A stretch of DNA of 28,613 nucleotides from a virus, in the IMG/VR virus record IMGVR_UViG_3300040801_001534, positions 1-28,613 of that record. The stretch is one strand, 5' to 3'. Positions 17,657 to 27,321 of the stretch are shown in pieces. Each line of letters opens with the position of its first letter. The stretch's first letter is position 1. The translations under genes and the position numbers were made by a program. A model generated the notes under the pieces. That model was given only the letters and a program-made list of their open reading frames with translations, was not told the origin of the DNA and made no database searches.

Positions 17657-18153
17657 GAAGTTTTACAACAATCTTTGTATTACCTTCAATAGTATCACCT
17701 GTACTATATTTTAAATTACAAAAAGTCATTAATAGTGATTCCTTTGTAAACTGTTACTTAGGTGATGTTGACAAACCTGAGTATGATGACCACTTATTAA
17801 TGGTATTTAATAATGAAATGAAAATGACTGAACTCAAAATACTAGAGTCTTTAAGTAACTATATTAATTTATATACTAAAGATGAGTATATTGTGGTAGT
17901 ATTTGAGTTAGATCATGATAATGATTATTACAAATTAATTAGTGGTAGGTACACTGAAATAGATGATATTATGAAAGAAAAGATTTTAAAGTTTTGGGAA
18001 CTAGCTAAAGATAGTGCAATTGGAAGCCTTTTACATAAAACCATTGTAAATGAAGAAGATGTAAAAGTAGATGAATGGTGCCGCTTTAGTTATAGTACTT
18101 TTACTGATTATTATAGTAAACCACAAATGTTTAACGAAATACTTGGATTTTAA
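17653..18153 (+). CDS. Hypothetical protein between exonuclease and dUTPase
   Basis: A 166-residue protein I do not recognise. It starts with a hydrophobic strand-like segment (FTTIFVLPSIVSPVLYF, residues 4-20), which could be read as a weak signal or membrane segment but more likely is a core strand pair in a soluble protein. The rest is acidic and mixed alpha/beta, with many Asp, Glu and Tyr (VVFELDHDNDYYKLISG). It overlaps the exonuclease by four bases and the dUTPase by one (TAATG), so the three are translationally coupled. Its place suggests a link to nucleotide or recombination metabolism; no direct evidence. Confidence 0.75.
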   Translation: MRSFTTIFVLPSIVSPVLYFKLQKVINSDSFVNCYLGDVDKPEYDDHLLMVFNNEMKMTELKILESLSNYINLYTKDEYIVVVFELDHDNDYYKLISGRYTEIDDIMKEKILKFWELAKDSAIGSLLHKTIVNEEDVKVDEWCRFSYSTFTDYYSKPQMFNEILGF

Positions 18154-18617
18154 TGACTAAGATAGAAAAAGTCAAAATCCCAATTGCCAATATATCAAAG
18201 AATAACTTACCAACACAACATACAAAAAAAGCAGTAGGATATGACTTAAAAGCAAATTTACATGAACCAATAACACTACCACCTTTTACTAGAGTATTGA
18301 TACCTACTGGATTAAGAGTACGTTTACCAGATGATAAACAAGCAGAGATAAGACCTAGAAGTGGTTTAGCTTTAAATCATGGTATCACTGTACTTAATAG
18401 TCCTGGTACAATAGACCCAGACTACATGGGCGAAATTAAAGTTATATTAACTAACTTAAGTGAACAAAGGTATACTATATACCCAGGAGATCGCATTGCA
18501 CAGTTAGTAATTACTAATAGAACTGAAATTGAATGGGTAGAAGAATTTGATTATAGTTTTGTAATGAATGAAGAAAACGACCGAGACCAAGAAGGTTTTG
18601 GTGGTACAGGAAAATAA
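18153..18617 (+). CDS. dut: dUTP diphosphatase (trimeric dUTPase)
   Basis: Hydrolyses dUTP to dUMP and pyrophosphate, keeping uracil out of DNA and feeding thymidylate synthesis. The 154-residue protein has all five motifs of the trimeric family: AVGYDLKA (27-34), RPRSG (67-71), GTIDPDYMGEI (85-95) with Asp88/Asp90, GDRIAQLV (112-119) and the C-terminal GFGGTG (148-153) that closes over the active site. The glycine-rich arm has an acidic lead-in (ENDRDQE) instead of the common Arg-Gly. The start ATG overlaps the previous stop by one base. Functional partner of the UDG at 5781. It is the last gene before the 233-nt structured gap. Confidence 0.97.
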   Translation: MTKIEKVKIPIANISKNNLPTQHTKKAVGYDLKANLHEPITLPPFTRVLIPTGLRVRLPDDKQAEIRPRSGLALNHGITVLNSPGTIDPDYMGEIKVILTNLSEQRYTIYPGDRIAQLVITNRTEIEWVEEFDYSFVMNEENDRDQEGFGGTGK

Positions 18618-18850
18618 ATCTCTTACAAAACACACTAATAGTAGGTCGCGTATCCTCGAAAGAGGGCCTTAAATTGCGTATATACTAAAGGAGAACTGTT
18701 AGGTTGCGATTGATTGTGTAGACTAAAAAAGGGTTTATAATATTCGTAACAAACCAGAAACCCTGCGTAAGGGGTTTGTTATTAAGCCAGGATTGGATTG
18801 TGAATATATGATCGCCTGGCTTTTTTATTTAATTTTAAAATATAGATAAT
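18618..18850 (+). ncRNA. Structured intergenic region, candidate RNA element ending in a terminator
   Basis: At 233 nt this is the longest gap in the + block and holds no plausible ORF. Seen directly: CCTC-GAAA-GAGG (18654-18665), a hairpin with a GNRA-type tetraloop; TAGTA near 18640 can pair with TACTA near 18682; CCTT (18667-18670) with AAGG (18688-18691); ACACA (18630-18634) with TGTGT (18715-18719), enclosing all of these. Downstream, AAACCC (18758-18763) can pair either with GGGTTT at 18731-18736 or with GGGTTT at 18772-18777, while AACAAACC (18748-18755) can pair with GGTTTGTT (18773-18780). The folds compete, as in attenuators. A terminator closes the region. It could be an ncRNA, a leader of the 18851 gene, or an origin-related element; I cannot assign a family. 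Confidence 0.5.
18784..18826 (+). terminator. Intrinsic terminator at the end of the structured gap
   Basis: AAGCCAGG (18784-18791) is the exact reverse complement of CCTGGCTT (18815-18822), followed by a run of T to 18826 and further T-rich sequence. The 23-nt loop is long for a simple terminator but the GC-containing stem is strong against the AT-rich background. Confidence 0.72.
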
Positions 18851-19660
18851 ATGTCTAAAAAGAGTGAAAAAACTGAAAACAAATTAGCAACCGTATCTGT
18901 AAGTTTATCTGAATACGATAAGTTGAAAGATCAGATTCAAAGTAAACAAAAAGAAGTTGATAGCCTCCATGAACAAATAGGAGACTTTAACCGTACCTTT
19001 GAGCATATGCGAGCTGAAAAAGCTAAAGATGATAAAGTTAAGATTATACATGAAACTAAGTATGGAGATACTCGTGTAACTTATCAGAATCTTCCTAATC
19101 TTGAAAAAGAAGCATATGAATTAGCTAAAAAAGAACTTGAAGATGAAATTAATGAACGAACTGAATTACAAGAGGAAATTAAAGATCTAAAATTAAAACT
19201 AAACGAAGAGCAGAGAAAATATAGTGCGAATCTTAATGAGATAAACCATAATAACCGTAATCTAAAAAATGAAGTCCGTGATGAGTATATTAGTAAGTTA
19301 GATAAGAAAGAAGAACAAATTAAAAACTTACAGAAAGAACTTCATAAAGTTAAAAATGATAAGACTGACGAACAACTTGAAAAAGCTCGTAAGAAAGAAA
19401 TTTCACAGTTAAATAAAATCATTGCTCAACAACAGAAACAAATTGAAGAGTTGCAAACTCGTGGTTGGTTTCGTAAATTATTTGAACGTATTGTAAACTT
19501 TAAATCTCAAATAGCTACTGAAAAAGAGCTACAAAAGGAACGGGAAAAGTTAGCTGAATATAGGAATCAAATTATTAATTTACAACAAAATCAACAGTCA
19601 TATACCTATAGTAGTTCTTATTCTGGTACAGATTACACTAATTATGGGATAAAATGGTAA
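18851..19660 (+). CDS. Coiled-coil protein
   Basis: A 269-residue protein dominated by heptad-like charged helices: about residues 17-60 and again 85-203, with runs of Lys/Glu and Leu/Ile at regular spacing. Between the two coils lies a short non-helical insert (IIHETKYGDTRVTYQNLP). At 204-220 the coil breaks into an amphipathic basic segment (RGWFRKLFERIVNFKSQ) that could lie on a membrane or bind a partner, then a last helix and a Ser/Tyr/Thr-rich tail. No enzyme motif. It precedes the AAA+ ATPase gene with only a small hairpin between, so a complex with that ATPase is possible. It might alternatively be a structural scaffold. Function unknown. Confidence 0.8.
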   Translation: MSKKSEKTENKLATVSVSLSEYDKLKDQIQSKQKEVDSLHEQIGDFNRTFEHMRAEKAKDDKVKIIHETKYGDTRVTYQNLPNLEKEAYELAKKELEDEINERTELQEEIKDLKLKLNEEQRKYSANLNEINHNNRNLKNEVRDEYISKLDKKEEQIKNLQKELHKVKNDKTDEQLEKARKKEISQLNKIIAQQQKQIEELQTRGWFRKLFERIVNFKSQIATEKELQKEREKLAEYRNQIINLQQNQQSYTYSSSYSGTDYTNYGIKW

Positions 19661-21009: not shown

Positions 21010-24000
21010 TTAGTTTACCCACCAGTTAAGTTGCGATTGTATATCCCTCAATTTATATATTTGTTTTCTTATAGGTATAAAGTCTATTGCTTGTTTCTTT
21101 AATTTTAAATCTCCTTTAAAATGTCCCCTTTCGTATACTTCAAAGGGATTAGTCATTAACTGATTAAATACCTTAATAGTATTCTCTAGCATTGCCATAG
21201 ATGCTGCGGGTGACCTAAGTATTTTTAAACTCTCGGCTGGATTAAAAAAGAATAGTAATTCTGTTCTATATCTTAACATCTGATACGCTGCAAATTCATA
21301 TATCCAATCCCTATCATCATCTTGATCTGCACGTAAACTTAGGAATACTTTACTTAGTATAATAGCAGATATTAAAAACCCAACCTCAGCAATAGTTCTG
21401 TGTATATTGGCTTTCTCAACATCAGTAAGCTTATTCCAATCCTCTTTTAATAAATCAAACTGGAATTTCCTCATATCATTTATCAGTGTCTTAAAGAACT
21501 TACCAGTCGTTCTATAGTTACCTTCTGTAAAATCTTCTAATCGTTCATTATAGTTTAGGTTACCCCATCTACGTCTAAACCCAGGTTCTACAAACTTACG
21601 AAACATAAATGCCATTCTGCCAAGTGCTCTACGTTCAATAGCTACTTTACCTATTCTAGAATATTCACCATGGAGTTGTGATAATACCCCCCTAGTTTTG
21701 TATAAAAAAGCATCTTGGTCTTTTTCTGTCCATTTAGACTTATTAACATCTACTCTATCGTCCAAAATTAATTTACCATCTTTAGCTTTATACATATCAA
21801 GCATAGTACCAAGTTCATTACCGTCTGCATCGTAAGCTTTCTTGTTTGCTAACATTCCTAATAAGAATCTTGATTGTATAAAATGTTCACCAACTTTAGA
21901 AGTAAAGAATAATGTATCAGATTTCATCAATTGTCCAAACCTACTATCTTTTCTAAAATCAGCCCTATCATATTCGTTAAGTACATCGAATCTTTCAAGT
22001 AGTAAGCTAACTATATTCTTGGGTTTTCTACTACCTATGTCACCTATTATTCCTGGGAAATTTTTATCATAAAAGAATCTACCTTTACGGTAGGCTTTAC
22101 GATTAATATATCTACCAGCAAATGTTTCTATTCTTTGCATAGTTTCACCTAGTATAACGTTTGCTGTACCCTGAGTAAAGTTACCAGCAAGCATATTTAT
22201 AGAAGTAAATCTATTTAACCAATCAGCTGCTTTTGCTTTATCTATAGTAACTCCAAATAATGTAGCAGTACCTTCATCTCTTTCAGATTTACCATATACC
22301 CAAGTCATTGTCCAATCTTCAAATTGTTGATAAATTTGGGATTCACTACCTGCTTTAGTACGAATGACTTGTTGATCTTTATAAGCTGGATCATATACTG
22401 GCTTCCCATTAGCTTTAGTTTTTTGTACTTCCCTTGTTTCTAGCAGAAACCTAGTTAATTCTAGTTCTGGTAATATCTCACTTTTATAAGCAAAGTCAGT
22501 AGCTGACCTATAATACTCATAGTATATACTACCCAAATCAAATGATTGATCTTGTAGTGATATTCTATTAGTAAAGTATATGGGAACATAGTTAACTACC
22601 CTACCAGCTTCATTAGTTAGTTCTAAACTACCACGGTCAGTTTCATCTGATAGTATTTTAAAGCTCTCTCTGGCCTTTTCTTTAGCTACCCTTAGTACTC
22701 CTTGACCAGCAGCTAAACGTTCACCAGAAGCCTTTAAAATGCCTGGTAGACGTGTTTGTAGTCTATACTGCCAAGGTACCCTACTATCGGCTTCCTCTCT
22801 TATATCTTTAATTAGATTATAGAACTTCGTCTTAGGATCATTAGGATTAGCTTCCATAAATTTCTCAAGTTTTGCAAAGTCTGGATTTAACCACTTTTGA
22901 ATTGGCCTTCTATAATCCCAGATATTCCTAAATACCCAATCATCAATTAATTGCGCGGCTTCATCATTAACAATATTACTAGTCTCTTCTCTAGTAGGCT
23001 CTTTTTGATTGAACTGAGTAAACTGTTGTATATAATCTTGGTCTACTATAATAAGATCTTCAACTTCTTCTTCTGTTAATTTACCTTCTTTAACTAACTG
23101 ATTATAGTACTCATACTTAGCCCTATTAAACCCCTCATGGTCTAATGGGGCATTCTCTGACATCCACAATCTACGCTGTCTACGCCGTTCATTATCCTCT
23201 AACTCTCTTGTACTTTCATAAAATTCTTTATATGATTCAAACAAACTACTTTTGTACTGTGTTAATAAATGTTGAGTTGGATTACCATTTTCATCCTTTT
23301 CCAACATAAAATCATACAGTTTTTGTATTTCATTTGGTGTACCATATTTTTCTTCTAATTCTCTCTGTACAGTCACTATTCTATCTCTCACGTCTAGGAT
23401 TTCTCTCCTAGCTTTTTGATCTTGAAAAAAGAAGGCTTTAACCATAGCTGATACTACTGGATCTGGACTGTCCATTAAGTTAGCAATCCACCTGGATGCA
23501 TAATTAATATCACGACTAGCTTTATGCAGTTCAGTTTGTAACATCAACTCTGTACGCTCTTTAATATCTTCTACCAGAGGCCCAATCTTCTCATCGATAT
23601 ATTCTTGCTTAGTAATACTAGCTTTCTCCTCTTTTGGTAGATTATTATATTCTCGTTCTAATCGTATTCGTTCTTCACCTTCAATTCTTGTAGAATAATT
23701 TGCTAAGAATTTAGCTAATTGTGGTAACCCTTTAGCTGCATACTGTCTTTTTAAAGTATTTTTTTGATTAATAGTACTGTCTATTGTATCTAGTACTTTC
23801 TGTAAACTCTCGTTACTAGCTGTTTGTTTACTTATATACTCTCGTACAGCACTTTCATTTAAGATACTACTTATATCATCAAGTATATCATATGCTAGAG
23901 TAGAATTAAACCACCTTTGTAATAGTGGTAGTGTAAATAAATTCTTACTAGATGTCTGTTGTTTCTTCTCCAGTGCTAAGTACTCATTAAAGATACTATT

Positions 24001-27000
24001 AATCTCTTTATTAGCAGCTAGTACAAAATCAAGTAGAGCTTGAAACTCATGCATTTCTTTTAATTTCTTGATAGTATCTTTAAGATCATCCGCTAGACCC
24101 GGTCGACCCAACTTACGTAAACGTTGTTCCTTTCTTTCTAAAGCTTTTACTGCTTTATCTTTAAGTATTGCCAATCTTTCTAGACGATTTCTACGAGCCT
24201 CTGCTTTAATCTGTTCACGACTCTCCTTTTCTAGCTGTTCCTTCGTTTTAGGTAAAAGTTGAAATACTAGGTCATCTGTGTCGAATAAACTATTACGCAT
24301 GCTAGATTCTACAGTACTAACAACTTCACTCCTAATTAAACTTCTAGGAAACTTACGTTGGCCCTTCTTTAAAGCTGCTATTTTAGTATTAATTTCTGCT
24401 TGAGAAGTGTATTCTTTTTCGGGAACTGGTTTTTTAAAACTACCCAACACTTCTTGTTTTATTTTATCAGAAAGTACCCAAAATTTAACACCATGTTTAT
24501 TTTGTTCTTCTCCTATAATAAAATCTTTTATATCAGAATAAATACTATCATCTTGCCACATGCCAATTTCATTAGTAGTATTTCCAACATTTAAAGTAAA
24601 AATAGATACTTTTCTATCTATCTTACCATCAAAATTACTACTACCTGAATAATTTTCAGGTAAAATACCTTTGGATGCGGATTCATATTCTCTTAGTTGA
24701 TATATATATCTATCATTTACTTTATCCTTTTTTATACTTTCAATACTTTCCTTTAAATTCTCATTAGTTTGAGTTGGTTGTTTACCTATATATCTCTCAA
24801 TTTTTAAATGATGTTCTGCATTATATACTTTCCTAGACTCAATAAAAGATTCGGCTTCTTTTGATGTATTAAATTCATGAGTTTCTTCTATAACTTCTCC
24901 TTCAAAATACTCAGAAGTTTTAACCACATATTTGTCAACTTCAGGGTTTTTAACCTTAGGCTCAACTAACTTACCAAATTTACTATCTAGTATGCCATTA
25001 ATCTTATCAATTAACTTCTTAGTAGAATAAGGTACATTGTCATCATATTCTAATCTAAAGTTATTGCCTGTAAGTTCAATACCTAATTCATTATGATGAT
25101 GTGCTAAATTATCTATAACAGCAGCTAAATTAGGTTGTACTGAATCAATATTATTTAATGCTGGGGATTTAGTATAACTAACTCCAACTATCTCAGACTT
25201 AGTATCTTTACTAACTTTTTTAGATGCATCCCATACACTACCACTAAATACATCAGTATTAGCAGCCCATTTAATATCTTTAGATTTAGGGTGAATTCTA
25301 AACTTAATCTTACCTCCCCCACCTTCAAGATGTCCTATTTGTTTATTAACAGGTTTAGTGAATGCAGATATAGTAAATTCTCCTCCAGCTTTCTTATTAT
25401 CTTCAATATGAGCTAATAAGTTTTGAAACATTAATTCTATATCAAAATCACTATAAGCTCCTACTACAGAATAGAATCCTTGACCTCTAGAATATACTTC
25501 TTCAGGATCATATTTAATATCATTAACTTTCTTCCACTCTTCTATAATTTCTTTAGATTGTTCGTATTCTTTGTTTTTAGAGATAAACTCTTTTAAGTCT
25601 TTAACCTGCTTAGGTTTAGAAACATTATCTGGGTTTATATCAAATATTCTATATATATCAAAATCAGTCAAAGTTTCCTTACTACCGTCTTCATAATTAA
25701 TATTATAGGTATCAGGATACTCCATACCCATTTCTGGAACACCTTCTTTAAATGTATAACTTTTAATTATTTTATTACCTTTTTTTCTACCAATTAAACT
25801 TATTTCTTTATAGTTTGCTAACTCACTAATATGATTACTAGCTTCTTGATAAGTTTTAAAAGTTTGATTATCAGGTGTAGTATAAATCACCTCATTCCCA
25901 GGTAATATAAGTTTAGAATCTCTATAAGCTAATAAATCAGCTATATCACCTAAAGTCATATTATCAGGCAATTCATCTATCTTAACTTCTTTAGCATTAA
26001 ATAAAGACTTCATATACGCCTTCATTTCTTTGAGAAGCCTTTTAAGTAAAGATATTAATTTACCATCTTTAACTTTATCTAACCTGTCAGCAGTATATAA
26101 TCCTAATAATTCTACAATAGCTTCTTCTTGTTGTTCTTCTAAGGTGTATTTAACTTGTTTATTTTTAACACTTCTATACAAACGTTTACCTTCAGGGGTA
26201 TCAATTTCATAAAAATATTTAACCCCGTTCTTAATAACAGACTGTCCTTGTTCAATCACACTATCTGCTTCTTCTTCTGTAATATAATTAGGTTCTGAAG
26301 TTTCTTTATATTGATAATCCCTCTTAATCCTATCTAATACTTCTTTACCTCTACCAGTTTCAAGTTCTTTGAGTAGGTTTTGGTATAGTTGATTATTTAA
26401 CCCTTTATTAAGTGTTTTAACAAAAGATTCCGCATCTTCTTTATTTTTATAATAGCTTGAATTTACCCATAATCCCTCCTTATTTTTATATCTAACTCTA
26501 GTGCCAGCAGAAGTAGTTTTATATTCAACATTAGTGTCAGTAGCTCCTTTTGTTTTTAAAGCCCTAATAATAGGATGCCCTAGTATTTCATGTATAGGAG
26601 TATCTAAGGTAGCATAAGCTAAGTTAATAACAGCAGTATTACCTTCTAATTTACCTTTATAATCTTTAGTTCTATCAGATTCATATCTAACTTTTAATCC
26701 AATCCTATCAGCCATTCTTTCAGCTAAGTCCCTAATAGTCTTTTCAGAAGTTAAGTTTTTTTCATTTTGAGTTTCTGCAATACGTTGATAAAAACTAATA
26801 TTATTAGTGTCATCTAATGGTAATACTTCACCACCCTTAACAGTTATATTAGCTTCCCTATACAAATTAGCAAATTCTTCATAAGAAGTTTCCTCCTCTA
26901 CCTCTTCCATAATACTGGATACAATTCCATATTCACGAATAACCCCATCATTAACTTTAACTCGTTTAACTACAGTTCTACCGGAATCGACGAATCTTTC

Positions 27001-27321
27001 AGTAAAAGGATTAATAGGTACAGTTTCTAATTCAACTAACCCTGGGTAAAGTTTATTAATCTTATTTAATTCTGCTTCTGTATCTTGTATATAAGTAGTA
27101 CCAGGCTTATTAGCTTTAATATAAACATAGCCATTATATAGCTGTAGAGACTTAAGTTGCTTTAAATGATTAACTACATCTGATTCAGTACTGAAAGCAC
27201 GTTCTGTGGGTATTTCATTGTCGTTAGCAATAAATAACCTGTAATTCTCATACCTACTACCAGTCTTACTTAATAAATCACGCCACTCTTGGCTATTTTC
27301 ATTAGGACATATAACTGCCAT
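21010..27321 (-). CDS. Giant multidomain late protein with zincin-like motif, probable internal virion protein
   Basis: A 2103-residue protein, by far the largest here. The N-terminal region (CPNENSQEW, then strand-rich) leads to HEILGH at 244-249, an HExxxH metal site; EEAIVELLG (399-407) with Glu404 is a candidate third ligand, as in Glu-zincins. The middle contains a Gly-rich block (HLEGGGGKIKF) and LAHHHNELGIELTGN around 735-765, then a coiled coil near 1025-1125 and long charged helical stretches. The C terminus has a hydrophobic segment at about 1979-1996 (GFLISAIILSKVFLSL) and ends DIQSQLNWWVN. Such giant proteins in crAss-like phages are packaged in the head and ejected with the DNA. 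The start ATG is one base after the upstream stop (TAATATG). No clear RNA polymerase motif is seen. Exact role inferred from size, position and recalled relatives. Confidence 0.75.
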   Translation of the reverse strand: MAVICPNENSQEWRDLLSKTGSRYENYRLFIANDNEIPTERAFSTESDVVNHLKQLKSLQLYNGYVYIKANKPGTTYIQDTEAELNKINKLYPGLVELETVPINPFTERFVDSGRTVVKRVKVNDGVIREYGIVSSIMEEVEEETSYEEFANLYREANITVKGGEVLPLDDTNNISFYQRIAETQNEKNLTSEKTIRDLAERMADRIGLKVRYESDRTKDYKGKLEGNTAVINLAYATLDTPIHEILGHPIIRALKTKGATDTNVEYKTTSAGTRVRYKNKEGLWVNSSYYKNKEDAESFVKTLNKGLNNQLYQNLLKELETGRGKEVLDRIKRDYQYKETSEPNYITEEEADSVIEQGQSVIKNGVKYFYEIDTPEGKRLYRSVKNKQVKYTLEEQQEEAIVELLGLYTADRLDKVKDGKLISLLKRLLKEMKAYMKSLFNAKEVKIDELPDNMTLGDIADLLAYRDSKLILPGNEVIYTTPDNQTFKTYQEASNHISELANYKEISLIGRKKGNKIIKSYTFKEGVPEMGMEYPDTYNINYEDGSKETLTDFDIYRIFDINPDNVSKPKQVKDLKEFISKNKEYEQSKEIIEEWKKVNDIKYDPEEVYSRGQGFYSVVGAYSDFDIELMFQNLLAHIEDNKKAGGEFTISAFTKPVNKQIGHLEGGGGKIKFRIHPKSKDIKWAANTDVFSGSVWDASKKVSKDTKSEIVGVSYTKSPALNNIDSVQPNLAAVIDNLAHHHNELGIELTGNNFRLEYDDNVPYSTKKLIDKINGILDSKFGKLVEPKVKNPEVDKYVVKTSEYFEGEVIEETHEFNTSKEAESFIESRKVYNAEHHLKIERYIGKQPTQTNENLKESIESIKKDKVNDRYIYQLREYESASKGILPENYSGSSNFDGKIDRKVSIFTLNVGNTTNEIGMWQDDSIYSDIKDFIIGEEQNKHGVKFWVLSDKIKQEVLGSFKKPVPEKEYTSQAEINTKIAALKKGQRKFPRSLIRSEVVSTVESSMRNSLFDTDDLVFQLLPKTKEQLEKESREQIKAEARRNRLERLAILKDKAVKALERKEQRLRKLGRPGLADDLKDTIKKLKEMHEFQALLDFVLAANKEINSIFNEYLALEKKQQTSSKNLFTLPLLQRWFNSTLAYDILDDISSILNESAVREYISKQTASNESLQKVLDTIDSTINQKNTLKRQYAAKGLPQLAKFLANYSTRIEGEERIRLEREYNNLPKEEKASITKQEYIDEKIGPLVEDIKERTELMLQTELHKASRDINYASRWIANLMDSPDPVVSAMVKAFFFQDQKARREILDVRDRIVTVQRELEEKYGTPNEIQKLYDFMLEKDENGNPTQHLLTQYKSSLFESYKEFYESTRELEDNERRRQRRLWMSENAPLDHEGFNRAKYEYYNQLVKEGKLTEEEVEDLIIVDQDYIQQFTQFNQKEPTREETSNIVNDEAAQLIDDWVFRNIWDYRRPIQKWLNPDFAKLEKFMEANPNDPKTKFYNLIKDIREEADSRVPWQYRLQTRLPGILKASGERLAAGQGVLRVAKEKARESFKILSDETDRGSLELTNEAGRVVNYVPIYFTNRISLQDQSFDLGSIYYEYYRSATDFAYKSEILPELELTRFLLETREVQKTKANGKPVYDPAYKDQQVIRTKAGSESQIYQQFEDWTMTWVYGKSERDEGTATLFGVTIDKAKAADWLNRFTSINMLAGNFTQGTANVILGETMQRIETFAGRYINRKAYRKGRFFYDKNFPGIIGDIGSRKPKNIVSLLLERFDVLNEYDRADFRKDSRFGQLMKSDTLFFTSKVGEHFIQSRFLLGMLANKKAYDADGNELGTMLDMYKAKDGKLILDDRVDVNKSKWTEKDQDAFLYKTRGVLSQLHGEYSRIGKVAIERRALGRMAFMFRKFVEPGFRRRWGNLNYNERLEDFTEGNYRTTGKFFKTLINDMRKFQFDLLKEDWNKLTDVEKANIHRTIAEVGFLISAIILSKVFLSLRADQDDDRDWIYEFAAYQMLRYRTELLFFFNPAESLKILRSPAASMAMLENTIKVFNQLMTNPFEVYERGHFKGDLKLKKQAIDFIPIRKQIYKLRDIQSQLNWWVN

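Follow-up and report, generated by a model that had tools for sequence, protein, structure and literature searches.

The stretch of DNA analysed here (the window) is a 28.6-kb record from a crAss-like phage, and the nearest relatives of its DNA polymerase I are found in crAss-like phages and in one Leptolyngbya phage. A 233-nt gap (18618-18850) lies between the stop codon of a dUTPase gene (18615-18617) and an ATG at 18851, and it accommodates, except for two initial bases that overlap the dUTPase stop codon, an element composed of the following parts.

18153-18617: dUTPase gene, 5' of the gap
18616-18777, + strand: whole element, read from the sequence as a circular permutation of "type C" (open at arm Z)
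18616-18626, + strand: closing stem Z, 5' strand AAATCTCTTAC, 11 bp with 18767-18777
18627-18638, + strand: joining strand AAAACACACTAA (family J2, ACACACUA variant), identical string in L023, L058 and L061
18639-18687, + strand: arm W, with TAGTA/TACTA, inner GCGTA/TGCGT and apical CCTC-GAAA-GAGG (18654-18665)
18688-18695, + strand: joining strand AAGGAGAA (J3), identical string in L023, L058 and L061
18696-18698, + strand: CUG strand of helix P2, paired with 18755-18757
18699-18702, + strand: conserved UUAG joining strand (UUAG in 87 of 95 copies)
18703-18709, + strand: helix X strand GTTGCGA, double changes at 6 of 6 pairs
18731-18736, + strand: pseudoknot strand GGGTTT (PK5), paired with 18758-18763
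18737-18742, + strand: ATAATA, counterpart of the conserved RUAGUA, whose AGUA is the proposed loop-E partner of GAA
18744-18750, + strand: helix X strand TCGTAAC, supported by covariation and present in the unconstrained minimum-energy fold
18751-18754, + strand: conserved AAAC joining strand (AAAC in 81 of 95 copies)
18755-18757, + strand: CAG strand of helix P2, paired with 18696-18698
18758-18763, + strand: pseudoknot strand AAACCC (PK3), supported by covariation
18764-18766, + strand: TGC, counterpart of the conserved YGA/YGC (TGA 51, TGC 24, CGA 18 of 95)
18767-18777, + strand: closing stem Z, 3' strand GTAAGGGGTTT, which includes a second GGGTTT
18784-18826, + strand: intrinsic terminator AAGCCAGG...CCTGGCTTTTTT, separate from the element and 3' of it, with its stem in the minimum-energy fold
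18851-19660: coiled-coil gene, 3' of the gap

Neither a tRNA nor an Rfam match was found in the window, and the coiled-coil protein has no relatives that we could find in viral contigs. Further downstream, a block of opposite-strand genes includes one (21010-27321, - strand) for a 2103-aa protein without a PHROGs match.

An initial annotation had described this gap as a long structured element with competing folds. The gap exists and every string named there is present; the observation is partly confirmed and its interpretation partly supported: the CCTC-GAAA-GAGG hairpin is real and caps arm W, and the terminator (stem 18784-18791/18815-18822 followed by T6), which a terminator scanner missed because its loop exceeds 8 nt, stands 3' of the element. 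The ACACA/TGTGT stem proposed to enclose the hairpin is not supported: L023 and L058 also have its 5' half, the conserved joining strand ACACACUA, and its 3' half falls in a variable loop. The strings TGCGATTGATTGTG and GGATTGGATTGTGA, reported to recur, are present in the gap and were not seen in relatives.

The gap folds somewhat better than its shuffles (z -2.37 for 18618-18832; z -2.09 for 18620-18773); its unconstrained minimum-energy fold includes P2, X and W, and folding with exact ends adds Z. The window copy has the 6-bp pseudoknot of the GGGUUU/AAACCC type, helices P2 (CAG/CUG type) and X linked by AAAC/UUAG (18696-18709, 18744-18757), and a closing stem at Z, one of the three junctions (V/X, W, Z) used in the family. 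It departs in the conserved strands: AAAAAA replaces GAAAAA and AATA replaces AGTA, so that AAA/AATA stands beside the pseudoknot in place of the conserved GAA/AGUA. As the helices and the remaining joining strands are kept, the window copy is counted as a variant of the family.

Fold, covariation and circular permutation

The RNA is about 90-160 nt long, and its parts follow one another in a ring: V, GAAMAA, PK5, RUAGUA, V', X, AAAC, P2 and PK3, and from there YGA, arm Z, ACCC/ACACA, arm W, P2', UUAG and X'. Its core consists of helix X, the 3-bp helix P2 and the 6-bp pseudoknot, accompanied by the variable arms W and Z and the short helix V; the strands GAA/AGUA, AAAC/UUAG and YGA are conserved and unpaired. 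GAA and AGUA occur together in 86 of 95 copies, a combination that may mark a loop-E (sarcin-ricin type) motif; in the window, immuto and L042, AATA is found at the AGUA position and the G of GAA is A or T.

Two covariation tests were run on sets picked without requiring the tested pairs; identical rows were removed, and the counts are otherwise uncorrected for relatedness. Across 43 distinct copies collected with the core pattern, helix X is paired in 93% of cells, with double changes at all six pairs, and 120 double-change cells compare with 34 in shuffled and at most 31 in slid controls. The pseudoknot and P2 were assessed in 27 distinct copies collected with a joining-strand pattern that fixes two of the three P2' bases and leaves the middle base free, after five rows with a misplaced anchor had been removed by hand; they are paired in 99.6% of cells, with double changes at five of the six pseudoknot pairs and at the P2 middle pair (27 double-change cells, compared with 7.7 in shuffled and 0 in slid controls). 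Phage KVP40 has swapped the pseudoknot completely, AGCAUU/AAUGCU replacing GGGUUU/AAACCC. The P2 variants of a larger set (CAG/CTG 76, CTG/CAG 12 and GAG/CTC 5 of 95) serve as illustration only, as that set was partly found by pairing, and in type A copies helix V, which formed part of no search pattern, reaches 96% pairing over its first two pairs.

These data strongly support the initial suggestion of a phage ncRNA, and confirm that GGGTTT (18731-18736) pairs with AAACCC (18758-18763), as a pseudoknot. Compensatory changes, which had been named as the check to make in relatives, are indeed found, in stems that are partly other than those expected. They also bear on the suggestion that the gap is a replication origin or another DNA-level structure, for which its intergenic position within a replication gene block might speak: the changes, G-U pairs included, act on RNA helices; the element lies on one strand only, mostly co-oriented with genes; and phages whose replication modules are unrelated have the same RNA in their tRNA arrays. 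We regard an origin as extremely improbable.

The ring is opened in nature at three places: at V/X, at W or at Z. Most copies have their ends at V/X; ends at arm W, with the X end closed by a loop, are seen for example in L009, L025, L033, L038, L043, E. coli G2469 and Proteus PM135; and ends at arm Z in the window, L076 and L147. The closing stem of 12 bp in L076 and that of 9 bp in L147 occupy the ring position that stem Z has in the window. Closing stems recovered by an automatic search measure 7-15 bp and lie mostly at the expected junction, a few being off-register. In several permuted copies the terminal stem is followed by T-rich DNA, and it may therefore double as a terminator.

Distribution and genomic setting

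When the gap was used as a sensitive BLAST query, only one 43-nt part matched, in Flavobacterium, Vibrio and Zobellviridae phages not related to one another in other respects. The core, which in the window reads GGGTTT-RTARTA-N-AAACCAGAAACCC (18731-18763), was turned into the pattern GGGTTTRTARTA-N3-24-AAACCAGAAACCC, for which 0 chance matches are expected in the window; it occurs in 66 stretches of viral DNA (IMG/VR) and, among about 85,000 bacterial and archaeal genomes, in only 3 contigs. A relaxed core was found in T4-like, T5-like, Listeria, Bacillus, Vibrio, Rhizobium, Flavobacterium and jumbo phages, and further pattern scans and BLAST with family members supplied extra members: Straboviridae (KVP40, Pectobacterium PM2, E. 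coli Mosigvirus), Demerecviridae (Proteus, Klebsiella and Pectobacterium phages), Vequintavirinae, Herelleviridae (Listeria, Bacillus Eldridge), Rhizobium phages, the Klebsiella jumbo phage RaK2 and contigs of up to 518 kb. The Aeromonas phages 4L372XY and PhAER-4 contain GGGTTTATAATA...ACAAACTAGAAA only, without the pseudoknot partner or CTGTTAG, and were rejected as members.

In one subtype, GGAC replaces AGUA and the pseudoknots are richer in G+C (e.g. GGGCUC/GAGCCC). Its members are L142, L156, L157, L161, L162, L166, L168, L180, L183 and L184; one of these ten is near tRNAs, and some come from isolate-derived records and may be prophages. Searches of plasmids and of E. coli chromosomes gave no match to this subtype.

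A same-strand tRNA lies within 300 nt of the element in 56 of 124 cases, vs. 11.7 expected when positions on these loci are drawn at random (at most 20 in any of 200 trials). Many elements stand 3-7 nt from the tRNA end and others further away, and over half have no tRNA within 300 nt. In G2469 the element occupies precisely the space from tRNA-Met to tRNA-Arg, which in RB69 measures only a few bases; relative to RB69 it is a clean insertion of ~100 nt.

Other copies are built into, or around, further structured RNAs. In Klebsiella phage VLCpiM5b (L206:1386-1690), the element lies within a group I intron (RF00028, 69.8 bits) that splits the DNA polymerase gene, the parts of which are annotated as two polymerase genes; in our reading of the intron strings it is placed between Q and R, i.e. 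in the P6 region. This context was rejected as a general rule: L206 alone among 30 records has a group I intron over the cut-off, and the window has no RF00028 match. The skipping-rope RNA (RF02924) replaces arm Z in L016:3112-3203 (- strand), L182:9291-9407 and L189:7299-7415, all above cut-off, and is present in arm Z of L154 (about 1077-1166) below cut-off; at these loci it is part of a larger RNA. In the record of L008, a skipping-rope copy lies apart from the element. A common structured insert of ~45 nt (GTATAGGGC..TAGCCCGCGAGTTC..) occupies arm Z in L012 and L020. In L031 (5380-5640), the element stands between GAGGAAAGTCGGG and ACAGAACCCCGCTTACAG, which are RNase P RNA end signatures; the RNase P models RF00010 and RF00011 gave no match on L031 or L203, and the RNase P-like identity of L031 is partly supported, as a lead only. 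Such RNase P-like strings were observed at both ends of a stretch of ~250-350 nt containing the element in L031:5380-5640 and L203:1890-2196. Permuted (two-piece) tmRNAs were found at L018:2229-2654, L019:9069-9437 and L154:8103-8446, and in the first two of these contigs a GTGTGG/CCACAC stem seems to enclose the element, which immediately precedes the tmRNA.

Three further explanations were considered. The first, an attenuator-type leader whose competing folds switch the three downstream genes, is not supported: no protein family recurs regularly beside the RNA across its locations, the downstream genes differ everywhere, no conserved regulated gene was found, and the element is often between tRNA genes. 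In favour of this reading, which the initial annotation had proposed, are the second GGGTTT and a terminator, both downstream in the window, and an alternative stem AACAAACC/GGTTTGTT, which is possible. The two GGGTTT copies do not compete for AAACCC, however: the second (18772-18777) has its own partner in the 11-bp stem Z. Neither a second copy of the pseudoknot strand close to PK3, of which 6 of 95 copies have a 5-nt match, mostly as chance fragments, nor an alternative partner is shared by the family, and the alternative stem would break conserved P2 and pseudoknot pairs. Two conserved, mutually exclusive folds, one of them a terminator, were not found; the terminator follows the element, and permuted copies put different ends downstream. 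A switch of this kind is very unlikely.

A second explanation is a new class of self-cleaving ribozyme, predicted to trim phage tRNA or mRNA transcripts as theta (HDV-like) or hammerhead ribozymes do. Circular permutation is typical of self-cleaving ribozymes, and three permutations are present here; the core is compact and pseudoknotted, with many conserved unpaired bases; and the element often comes right after a tRNA 3' end. Theta ribozymes are found at phage tRNA 3' ends, with cleavage sites mostly within 1 nt (PMC10879173). They resemble this RNA in adjoining phage tRNAs and in being pseudoknotted, but they have another topology, and a cleavage site within about 1 nt of a tRNA 3' end does not fit our RNA, whose distance from the tRNA end varies (3-7 nt and more); the window has no tRNA. 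Moreover, cleavage would be harmful within the group I intron of the polymerase gene and within the RNase P-like RNA, many copies have their own terminal stem and nothing downstream to process, and no Rfam ribozyme family matches. We consider self-cleavage distinctly unlikely.

The third explanation, a cis-acting module that protects or regulates phage RNAs as an exonuclease-blocking or stabilising domain or as a ligand-binding aptamer, would account for the copies within the group I intron and the RNase P-like RNA of L031, around the skipping-rope RNA and next to permuted tmRNA, and for a conserved unpaired core such as aptamers have. It accounts poorly for free-standing copies with a closing stem of their own between tRNA genes, which have no obvious target in cis, and the genes flanking the element are of no common kind on either side. 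We judge it unlikely.

Possible action of the RNA and relation to known systems

The best explanation, in our view, is that the gap encodes a member of a widespread phage RNA family outside Rfam, which is probably a trans-acting module with a binding surface, predicted to fold autonomously and to be stable; the attenuator, origin and self-cleaving readings are less likely. We infer that the RNA acts through its fold, since it retains its core whichever of the three openings it has, occurs on its own between tRNAs and can be accommodated within other folded RNAs; its positions argue against control of one neighbouring gene. Beside tRNAs, tRNA processing would free it from the precursor transcript as if it were a further tRNA; elsewhere, it would be made as a small RNA of its own. 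In the window, the transcript would pass through the dUTPase stop and end at the terminator at 18826. The conserved unpaired core probably offers a surface for binding a partner that many bacteria have in common, candidates being a factor in translation or tRNA processing and a protein or signal of bacterial defence; as the hosts span several phyla, such a partner must be widespread in bacteria or supplied by the phage. Points against this explanation are the majority of elements that lack a nearby tRNA; the insertions into other structured RNAs, which fit a cis-acting stability element or aptamer equally well; and the deviating conserved strands of the window copy.

A bolder version, which we find doubtful, is that this RNA is a natural module for binding a ligand or protein, useful to phages universally, which is made in free form to serve as a decoy or sponge and is also incorporated in RNA enzymes. 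Its target would be a conserved bacterial one, the group I intron and the RNase P-like RNA may be controlled by the module, and the three permutations would have come about because nothing but the folded core is important, perhaps via a circular RNA intermediate.

The spread of this RNA over unrelated phages of Proteobacteria, Firmicutes and Bacteroidota suggests a shared unmet need of large lytic phages that is met by an RNA rather than a protein. Natural circular permutation in three ways is, to our knowledge, rare, and it suggests that function is carried by the folded core and not by the ends. As some E. coli phages that can be grown on K-12, e.g. phage mogra, have a copy, and natural relatives such as RB69 have none, the family offers a testable case for an old question, namely the role of extra stable RNAs in phage tRNA clusters.

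In Rfam 15, no family reaches its gathering cut-off over the element, and low-stringency scans of single copies gave chance matches far short of the cut-offs (best E-values 0.39-6.6), none at the core. In the Pistol ribozyme, the loop of a hairpin forms pairs with a strand further downstream, and V and the pseudoknot of our RNA are arranged likewise; the two differ in conserved sequence, and the Rfam scans gave no match. The skipping-rope RNA is, like ours, small, phage-borne and equipped with a pseudoknot, but it differs in fold and sequence, and most family members have a plain hairpin or nothing in arm Z. The stable RNAs C and D of T4 (rnaC, rnaD) are small stable RNAs of no known function in a T4-like tRNA cluster; they were rejected as homologues, as the family core motif was not seen in them by eye. 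GOLLD and ROOL are structured RNAs of phages that have no protein partner, commonly lie close to tRNA genes and are of no known function (PMC12286853). These ornate RNAs, which occur in phages and prophages near tRNA islands, resemble our RNA in the respects just named but are several times larger and unrelated in sequence and fold; neither RF02032 (GOLLD) nor the ROOL model matched the window element. A GOLLD RNA is present as a separate RNA in L167 (926-1388), ~450 nt upstream of an element copy in a tRNA-rich 8-kb phage locus.

Because there is no Rfam 15 match and the literature searched gave no description of this RNA, we regard the RNA class as new, with the caveat that a bulk computational list, such as the list of viral structured RNAs reportedly released in 2023, may contain it unnamed. 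What was known already is the setting: GOLLD, ROOL and the stable RNAs of T4 are earlier cases of orphan RNAs located in the tRNA islands of phages.
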